Source: Halorubrum tebenquichense DSM 14210
Lineage (GTDB): Archaea; Halobacteriota; Halobacteria; Halobacteriales; Haloferacaceae
DNA: 64,000 nt
NCBI RefSeq assembly: GCF_000337415.1
Contig: NZ_AOJD01000038.1
Span: 1 to 64,000, forward strand
Reading direction: 5' to 3'
The notes under the pieces are model-generated. The model had not been told where the DNA came from. It saw only the letters and a program-made list of their open reading frames with translations, and did no database searches. Both the position numbers and the translations under genes were made by a program. Below are positions 39,929 to 60,415 of the stretch, one piece after another. Positions within the stretch are counted from its first letter, which is position 1, and every line of letters starts with the position of its first letter.

Positions 39929-40187
39929 TTTATAAACATACGGTTGCGGTGGCGCGTGCCTGCGAGCGGCCGACAGGCCGCGAGTCAGCACGCGCGAGGG
40001 ACGCCGCGAGCGCAGCGAGCGGCGAGGCTGGGGAGGCGTGAGGCGCTGTGCGGAGCGGTCAGGGGCGGGACTCGAAGGGGCAGTCGCGAGGCGGACGGAG
40101 GCGACGCAAGCACCGCAGGAGCGAACGAAGTGAGCGACGAGGAGCGCAGCGAGCGTCCGTCCGCCTCGCGGCTGGGGCTTCGGAGGC
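39929..40187 (+). repeat. Structured repeat, copy A (candidate RNA)
   Basis: The element opens with TTTATAAA (39929-39936) and the conserved GCGGTGGCGCG (39946). Hairpin 1 has inner stem GCGGCC/GGCCGC (39966-39971, 39976-39981) flanked on both sides by GA. Hairpin 2 is CGCCGC/GCGGCG, then the core GAGGCTGGGGAGG (40024-40036) and GCGGGACTCGAAGGGGCAG (40065-40083). Hairpin 3 is a 19-bp stem (40081-40099 with 40156-40174, one G-T pair), followed by GGGGCTTCGG. No protein frame in it is believable. Copies B and C share the layout with compensating stem changes. It lies between a small membrane gene and tatC. Confidence 0.75.
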
Positions 40188-40309
40188 ACCCATGTTGGTT
40201 GAGTGTTTATAAGTGATAACGTCCAGCCGAGCGGCTGGGGCTTCGGAGGCACCCATGTTGGTTGAGTGTTTATAAGTGATAACGTCCAGCCGAGCGGCTG
40301 GGGCTTCGG
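40168..40309 (+). repeat. 63-bp tandem repeat with TATA box and hairpin
   Basis: A 63-bp unit is repeated perfectly at 40168-40230 and 40231-40293, with the first 16 bases of a third copy. Each full unit has the tail GCGGCTGGGGCTTCGGAGG, then a spacer, TTTATAAG (40206-40213 and 40269-40276), and CCAGCC-GAGC-GGCTGG hairpins (40223-40238 and 40286-40301). It continues the 3' end of copy A. Confidence 0.85.
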
Positions 40310-40331
40310 TGGCGTTCGTGCCGATGGTTGA

Positions 40332-40415
40332 TTTATAAGCAGAAACCGAGTCGTAGCGAGCGACTGAGGCTTCGGCGGAGATCACCGGCCATCCGCCAGC
40401 GATCACTTATAAACA
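40332..40415 (+). repeat. Diverged third TATA-hairpin unit and end box
   Basis: TTTATAAG (40332-40339) is followed by a different hairpin AGTCG-TAGCGAG-CGACT (40349-40365) and GAGGCTTCGGCGG. The series ends in CACTTATAAACA (about 40404-40415), close to the tatC stop. The stem differs from the 63-bp units yet still pairs, and the position of each part is kept. Confidence 0.65.
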
Positions 40416-58937: not shown

Positions 58938-59202
58938 GTTATAAGTTCAACTGCGGTGGCGCGCGCCTCCGAGGCCGCCTTGCGGCCGAGGAGCGTCGCG
59001 CGAGGGAGTCGCTGTCGGCCGAAGCGTGAGCGAAGGCCGCCAGCGACGAGGCTGGGGAGGTGTGAGGTGCGGTAGGGCGGGACTCGAAGGGGCAGCCGCG
59101 AGGTTGACGCAGGCGACGCAAGGACCGCAGCGAAGGAGCGACAGCGACTGAGAGAGGACCGCAGCGAGCGTGCGTCAACCTCGCGGCTGGGGCTTCGGCG
59201 GT
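58938..59202 (+). repeat. Structured repeat, copy B (candidate RNA)
   Basis: It begins GTTATAAG (58938-58945) and GCGGTGGCGCG (58953). Hairpin 1 is CTCC-GA-GGCCGC-CTT-GCGGCC-GA-GGAG (58967-58993). Hairpin 2 is GTCGCTG/CAGCGAC with an inner GGCC/GGCC. The core GAGGCTGGGGAGG is at 59048-59060 and GCGGGACTCGAAGGGGCAG at 59077-59095. Hairpin 3 is a perfect 19-bp stem (59093-59111 with 59171-59189), followed by GGGGCTTCGGCGG. Compared with copy A, three base pairs of hairpin 3 have changed on both sides. No downstream TATA units follow here. Confidence 0.78.
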
Positions 59203-60118: not shown

Positions 60119-60415
60119 CTTATGAATGGCTGTGGCTGAATCTCCGGCGAACGCCTCCCCAGCCTCGTCACCGGCGCTACGCGCCGGTTGTAAGCGAGAG
60201 CGAAGCTCTCGCCCTGTCGCTGGCGGTCTTCGCTTCGCTCGACCGCCAGCGACTCCGGCGAGAATCGAAGATTCTCTGGCAGCGAGGGACGCGATCTCTC
60301 GGGCGACCGGGCTTCGTCCGGTGACAGCCGGCGGCTTCGCCGCCGGCGACCTCGCGCGTGCGACTCGCGGCCTGGCGGCCGCTCGTCGGCACGCGCCACC
60401 GCACCTATTTATAAA
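60119..60415 (-). repeat. Structured repeat, copy C (hairpin-expanded)
   Basis: On the minus strand it opens TTTATAAA (60408-60415), GCGGTGGCGCG (60392-60402) and hairpin 1, CGAC-GA-GCGGCC-GCCA-GGCCGC-GA-GTCG. Then follows a block of about six closely packed inverted repeats, such as GGCGGCGAAGCCGCC, GAGAATCTTCGATTCTC, GGCGGTCGAGCGAAG with its partner, GCGAGAGCTTCGCTCTCGC and CCGGCGCGTAGCGCCGG. The core GAGGCTGGGGAGG (60154-60166) comes next, ending GTTCGCCGGAGATTC and TTCATAAG. The GCGGGACTCGAAGG module and hairpin 3 are absent. Confidence 0.72.

Follow-up and report, generated by a model that had tools for sequence, protein, structure and literature searches.

A haloarchaea-wide family of structured intergenic repeats that may be transcribed and recognised through a shared fold

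Introduction

The stretch of Halorubrum tebenquichense DSM 14210 DNA analysed here (64 000 nt; the window) carries an intergenic sequence of ~240 nt which a preliminary description, made from the letters alone, had grouped with two other copies (A, B and C) as a dispersed, structured repeat and a candidate new RNA family. What kind of element is this, and is its fold maintained as RNA or as single-stranded DNA? Our leading, though tentative, answer from sequence comparison is that the copies belong to a haloarchaea-wide family of short, non-coding, non-autonomous repeats which would be transcribed and whose fold would be recognised in trans.

Results

Copies A, B and C and the anatomy of the element

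The three copies and their parts lie within the window as follows.

39929–39935, plus strand: TATA-like box TTTATAA upstream of copy A (read in the sequence)
39946–40183, plus strand: copy A, a complete element with 5' module, linker and 3' module (profile match 39947–40182, E 4.4e-57)
39953–39995, plus strand: copy A hairpin 1, with tandem GA/GA internal loop (covariation over 40 copies; fold)
40002–40024, plus strand: copy A hairpin 2, the most variable and most exchanged block (copy comparison)
40024–40036, plus strand: copy A conserved box GAGGCTGGGGAGG (identical to the letter in 96 of 108 copies)
40064–40183, plus strand: copy A 3' module, comprising GGGACTCGAAGGGGCAG, the long stem and CTGGGGCTTCGG (covariance model R1, 130.2 bits, E 4.9e-22)
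40170–40361, plus strand: copy A tandem tail units of ~63 bp each, starting GGCTGGGGCTTCGG and holding TTTATAA
40170–40232, 40233–40295 and 40296 onwards, plus strand: the same tail units singly (first TTTATAA at 40206–40212)
58939–58944, plus strand: TATA-like box TTATAA upstream of copy B (read in the sequence)
58953–59198, plus strand: copy B, a complete element (profile match 58954–59197, E 7.7e-46)
59076–59198, plus strand: copy B 3' module (R1, 130.3 bits, E 4.7e-22)
60119–60415, minus strand: copy C, damaged, with the 3' module missing (sequence reading, fold, core profile)
60408–60414, 60401–60340 and 60154–60166, minus strand: copy C TATA box, hairpin 1 and box GAGGCTGGGGAGG, respectively

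On reading and folding the three regions, we found every motif that had been named for them, and the quoted stem letters were right (position 4 is T–G in A and C–G in B; positions 12, 13 and 18 are C, G and G in A and T, T and C in B). The outer pairs of hairpin 1 (CTGC/GCAG, CTCC/GGAG and CGAC/GTCG) are likewise real and recurrent, and a fourth type, CGGT/ACCG, can be added. The common plan proposed for all three copies holds for A and B, which are complete members; C is broken and is matched by the core profile over hairpin 1 only (1e-6), having several extra hairpins while retaining box GAGGCTGGGGAGG and the tail. Since its orthologue in the sister genome G016 is complete, copy C is a damaged copy. 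Copy B is flanked by hisA and hisB, two minus-strand genes to which it is antisense, and is letter-identical in G016. A search of Rfam 15 gave no match to the repeat, in line with the earlier failure to recognise a named family; the sole Rfam match in the window is a tRNA gene at 752–824 on the minus strand.

Read along the plus strand, a Halorubrum element begins ~8–10 bp after TTTATAA with GCGGTGGCGCG and continues through hairpin-forming and single-stranded parts in a fixed order: hairpin 1 with its tandem GA/GA loop, GCGCGAGGGA, hairpin 2 (very variable in sequence and length), GAGGCTGGGGAGG, a G/T-rich linker, GGCGGGACTCGAAGGGGCAG, the long stem, CTGGGGCTTCGG and a tail (RGTGTTCG...). Within the long stem are a GGG/GGG loop, GA/GA steps and a fixed asymmetric loop, AAGCAC/GCGCAGCGA. 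When folded, the strand as a whole shows two hairpins that vary, a single-stranded G-rich linker and a long 3' stem whose non-canonical loops are fixed. The tail unit, a refinement on the preliminary description, adjoins the element on its 3' side, often contains TTTATAA plus another CTGGGGCTTCGG, and is tandemly repeated at copy A, where a diverged fourth box stands at 40362; a second box of this kind is present within 25–100 bp in 101 of 182 copies. The 5' end GCGGTGGCGCG and the 3' end CTGGGGCTTCGG are not complementary, i.e. the terminal inverted repeats expected of a MITE are absent. Outside Halorubrum the 3' module has closing-helix letters of its own (GGGACTGAAAGGGG...GGGGCTTTC) and occurs alone, with a 5' module or in head-to-head pairs.

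Several local features deserve mention in their own right. Two elements or 3' modules stand head to head at loci of other genera (L339/L351, L342, L348, L331, L393), some with gaps of only ~20–35 bp, giving long imperfect palindromes. The linker GGGGAGGYGTGAGGTG (window 40024–40060) is Shine–Dalgarno-like (GGAGGTG) and, if transcribed, could touch the 16S 3' end. The symmetric GGG/GGG loop (40078–40080 with 40175–40177) is kept in nearly all copies and genera, and two such stems could form a G-quadruplex in a KCl-rich cytoplasm. Finally, GGGA(C/T)TGAAAG in copies of other genera (L341, L348; cf. window 40064–40090) resembles the archaeal crRNA 5' handle ATTGAAAG; this is a short likeness only, its letters pair with CTTTC and covary, and we consider a relation to CRISPR probably fortuitous.

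Abundance and distribution

Chance is excluded as the source of the repeat, because this genome contains 89 occurrences of the exact box GGGNNTCRAAGGGGCAG and none of its reversed pattern. In six other Halorubrum genomes, counts of the same box are 88 in G016, 124 in G027, 178 in G062, 85 in G008, 36 in G030 and 5 in G021, so three genomes hold 85–89 copies per 3.1–3.6 Mb and one holds 178, on both strands. DNA matches were obtained in all 35 sampled Halorubrum genomes. A covariance-model search of haloarchaeal genomes, which the preliminary description had proposed, finds the 3' module across the Halobacteria: the 122-nt model R1 matches 210 of 294 genomes and 62 of 78 genera (up to 73 copies per genome outside Halorubrum, in G059), finds no match in the other 84 genomes, and matches none of ~200 genomes of the phylum outside the class. 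An origin in viruses or phages was rejected, the exact box having no occurrence in IMG/VR and phage records giving no match. Copies were sampled from ~1.2 Mb of G016 and 0.85 Mb of this genome; many are truncated, and no autonomous version with an ORF between the halves was seen in ~2 Mb.

By the calls of a simple, purpose-written gene caller, 51 of 71 elements lie between same-strand genes (31 antisense, 20 sense), 11 between convergent and nine between divergent genes, and two are inside predicted genes. Sites upstream of sense genes are not preferred among the 71, a distribution that speaks against the element being a riboswitch or leader.

A plasmid-linked conserved unit was observed in Halobacterium, Halorubrum, Haloplanus, Halomarina and Halorientalis (L394–L399; L392 1330–1660, on H. 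salinarum pNRC200). In it, the block GCCCGGAATGGTCGGTCGCGA.CGACGCGGAGGGCGG precedes a relative of the 3' module (GACTCAGAAAGGGC...CCGCAAGCACCGCAGG...GGGCTTTC), and the unit may be a separate non-coding RNA gene with a common 3' domain.

Covariation and selection on the fold

In 40 Halorubrum copies, 97.4 % of the cells of the 3' stem are paired, with double changes in 23 of 39 pairs (171 cells) and a covariation of 0.344, against 0.140 ± 0.007 in shuffled and at most 0.063 in slid controls; for hairpin 1 and the base of hairpin 2 in 40 copies the corresponding figures are 95.5 % paired, 12 of 20 pairs and 0.372 against 0.135. Among 49 matches mostly from other genera, 93.6 % of cells are paired and double changes affect 33 of 39 pairs (516 cells; 0.686 against 0.181), most outer-stem pairs having at least three Watson–Crick types, although this alignment was fitted to the structure and its counts lean that way. 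Nor do any of these counts equal numbers of independent events, the rows being related and blocks being common to several copies. Block exchange (see below) explains part of the stem difference between species, so that the copies are not independent witnesses; we regard the between-genus alignment, in which nearly every pair differs, as the stronger evidence for covariation. With these provisos, the claim of a structured family with covarying stems stands far above both kinds of control, and the wide alignment supports one fold.

The closing helix varies by lineage (UCGAAG/CUUCGG, UCAAAG/CUUUGG, GAAAG/CUUUC or GGAAG/CUUCC). Within the box, G062 and G030 have undergone a whole-lineage shift from UCGAAG to UCAAAG, and in G062 the partner has changed as well, from CUUCGG to CUUUGG (L220; likewise L201, L215, L217 and L227). 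Pair 46/98 reads C–G in 17 copies, U–G in 17 and U–A in six, and never C–A; at pair 21/120 T–G intermediates are present and C–A is not; pair 9/132 is U–G in 38 of 40 copies. Almost without exception, the aligned copies retain the GA/GA, GGG/GGG and asymmetric AAGCAC loops even where neighbouring pairs differ, and no copies with internal loops turned complementary stood out in alignments A2 and A3. Because a process that wrote one arm onto its partner would mend non-canonical loops into pairs too, we argue for selection rather than mutational mirroring, and selection on the plus-strand fold is our best reading of the alignments. Since the fold is kept despite near-total change of its letters, something in these cells would appear to depend on it.

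Inheritance and block exchange

The copies are inherited at constant sites and in constant orientation, and they are reshaped by trading hairpin blocks with one another. Between sister species about nine in ten copies lie at the same sites in the same orientation. At 16 parsed sites in common with G016, where flanking genes are ~91–99 % identical in most cases, median identities are 0.45 for hairpin 2, 0.78 for hairpin 1, 0.89 for the outer 3' stem and 0.53 for the tail. Differences are mosaic: at L022 the pair differs essentially in hairpin 2 only, and at L016 in hairpin 1, the stem tip and the tail. Within G016, nine of 42 copies have a hairpin-2 block letter-identical to that of another locus, and yet all 42 parsed 3' stems differ, i.e. 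the family is not one of recent, near-identical spread, the outcome that the preliminary description had set against its own claim. Given that site and orientation are constant, that hairpin blocks are swapped wholesale and that some blocks match another locus exactly, the pattern fits segmental gene conversion between copies, not re-insertion. At three non-shared sites the spacers have been replaced, leaving no clean empty site or insertion edge, and no target duplication was seen; the hisA site is filled in a set of species and holds an unrelated short spacer in others.

RNA or single-stranded DNA

In 73 of 182 full copies (~40 %) a TATA-like hexamer starts between −22 and −10, against five and one in control windows of equal width. 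At the hisA site the filled orthologues keep the box (TTTATGA once) although the rest of the spacer diverges. The orientation of neighbouring genes does not explain the TATA box of the family as the promoter of a divergent upstream gene. With the archaeal spacing, in which transcription starts ~26 bp after TATA, a transcript would begin near the start of the 5' arm of hairpin 1, which refines an earlier prediction of initiation within hairpin 1. RNA is favoured by the TATA box, which 40 % of copies have immediately upstream, and by the tolerated G–U pairs: the U–G consensus at 9/132 and the T–G but not C–A intermediates at 46/98 and 21/120 look RNA-like, and the TATA spacing in Halorubrum suits transcription. 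Against it, the box is confined to that ~40 %, the distant 5' modules examined have none, G–U makes up only ~3 % of pairs, and 3' modules head to head ~30 bp apart in other genera leave scant space for two promoters.

The last three of these points lend weight to the alternative that the selected form is single-stranded DNA. In that case the plus strand would be exposed during replication, or while being processed by a trans-supplied nuclease or recombinase, and would fold into mini-hairpins that serve as recognition sites in transposition or recombination. Both tandem GA steps and GCGAAGC are DNA motifs known for their stability. The apical loops of ~470 distinct hairpin blocks comprise 271 GNA triloops, 32 GNYA and seven GNRA tetraloops and no UNCG (those of hairpins 1 and 2 assigned by a simple stem-length rule, so that single assignments may be wrong); 158 of 180 parsed stem-3 tips follow GNA/GNNA with C–G closure, and 15 of 19 four-base tips are GNYA. 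The loops thus obey the rule for extraordinarily stable DNA mini-hairpins (GNA/GNNA loops with G–C pairs; PMC4686876), not that of GNRA or UNCG. The lack of an ORF points the same way. Apart from the RNA-like pairs and the promoter spacing, what tells against DNA is that no HUH/Y1 partner was found, G059 having 73 copies and no match to PF01797 or PF07282. We therefore see single-stranded DNA as a real possibility, and slightly prefer RNA. Somewhat less probable than single-stranded DNA in general is the reading of the family as a shape-coded repeat for a candidate haloarchaeal reader protein, in which ~100 shape-identical, sequence-scrambled, individually maintained single-stranded DNA elements, class-wide, would combine GNA/GNNA mini-hairpins, an invariant GGG/GGG loop and hairpin-wise gene conversion.

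Discussion

We suggest, with the reservation due to a reading that faces a strong competitor, that the plus strand of the repeat is transcribed from a TATA box 10–22 bp upstream, that the RNA begins near the 5' arm of hairpin 1 and then folds, and that a protein or complex may bind the folded RNA by reading its invariant loops (GGG/GGG, AAGCAC/GCGCAGCGA and the GA/GA steps). Such recognition would lead to the element being copied in trans and to surviving copies being kept folded, although no active mobilisation was caught at the three non-shared sites.

It is less probable, and in our view unlikely, that the repeat is a host-beneficial, multi-copy non-coding RNA family, the cell needing the RNA itself, e.g. 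as a protein-binding or ribosome-associated species. The distinct, well-paired stems of the examined copies, the persistence of the family over 62 of 78 genera and the conserved plasmid-linked relative of the 3' module in several genera would suit such a role, but copy number ranges from 5 to 178 within one genus, 84 of 294 genomes have no match, sites come and go between species and many copies are truncated. Very improbable is a PATE-like IS200/IS605 remnant or a TnpB guide (omega) RNA. The element is indeed short, palindrome-rich and without a clean insertion edge, features that recall PATEs (PMC3119063), but the five R1 matches among 31 tnpB or Y1 loci approximate the expectation from copy density and are placed on the outer margins of these loci, none at gene ends, and G059, the copy-richest genome outside Halorubrum, lacks both genes (PF07282, PF01797), which largely refutes an IS200/IS605 derivation. 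Equally remote is an origin without function, the arms being paired through palindrome correction (template switching) and base composition: haloarchaeal spacers gave the impression, in the loci read, of being rich in GAGCGAAGCGAG-type palindromes, and hairpin blocks do change wholesale, but correction would have paired GA/GA, GGG/GGG and the asymmetric AAGCAC loop, and ~200 genomes outside the class have no match.

If our preferred reading of a transcribed, fold-recognised repeat is right, the Halobacteria possess an abundant non-coding family hitherto undescribed, with no entry in Rfam or in the open literature searched. A 104-RNA survey has no word starting 'Halo' in its main text (PMC2864571), and we found no described haloarchaeal repeat of this kind in the open literature, the scope of the search (subscription journals lying outside it). 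With ~90 natural compensatory variants in each genome, the family would lend itself to tests of what recognises the fold, and it would show an archaeal mode of change that we have not seen documented, in which site and orientation are inherited and inner hairpins are swapped between copies. The two modules enable haloarchaeal annotation, repeat masking and searches for a protein or recombinase partner.

Among known systems, the omega RNAs of IS605/TnpB are likewise structured haloarchaeal RNAs tied to mobile DNA, but the present repeat is not at tnpB ends and occurs in a genome without tnpB. REP/BIME sequences are short, intergenic, structured repeats of orientation-independent context, possibly recognised as single-stranded DNA; REPs, however, are 20–40 bp of near-constant sequence, whereas our element has ~240 nt and freely changing stem letters. 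Integron attC sites are also sequence-variable and recognised via a folded single strand, but the repeat has no cassette arrangement and its motifs differ. In Haloquadratum, PATEs lack inverted repeats and target duplication, have palindromes near their termini and reach 194 copies (PMC3119063). With these and the small mobile repeats (SMRs) of Haloquadratum walsbyi our family shares a haloarchaeal host, non-coding and palindromic character, ~100–200 copies and no visible target duplication, but PATEs have IS605-related ends, none of which were found here, and SMRs have terminal inverted repeats, which the present element does not (PMC3119063). Being dispersed, non-coding, intergenic, base-paired and modular, the copies belong with structured interspersed repeats of the BOX kind. 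BOX elements of Streptococcus pneumoniae, to which we claim no sequence relation, are similarly interspersed, intergenic, modular, highly base-paired and without a transposase of their own, with low apparent mobility and a module content that varies at one site between strains (PMC3049150). Where BOX varies the number of boxB units, however, the haloarchaeal repeat exchanges whole hairpins in place, and it is further set apart by its GC-richness, its upstream TATA box and covariation across an entire archaeal class.
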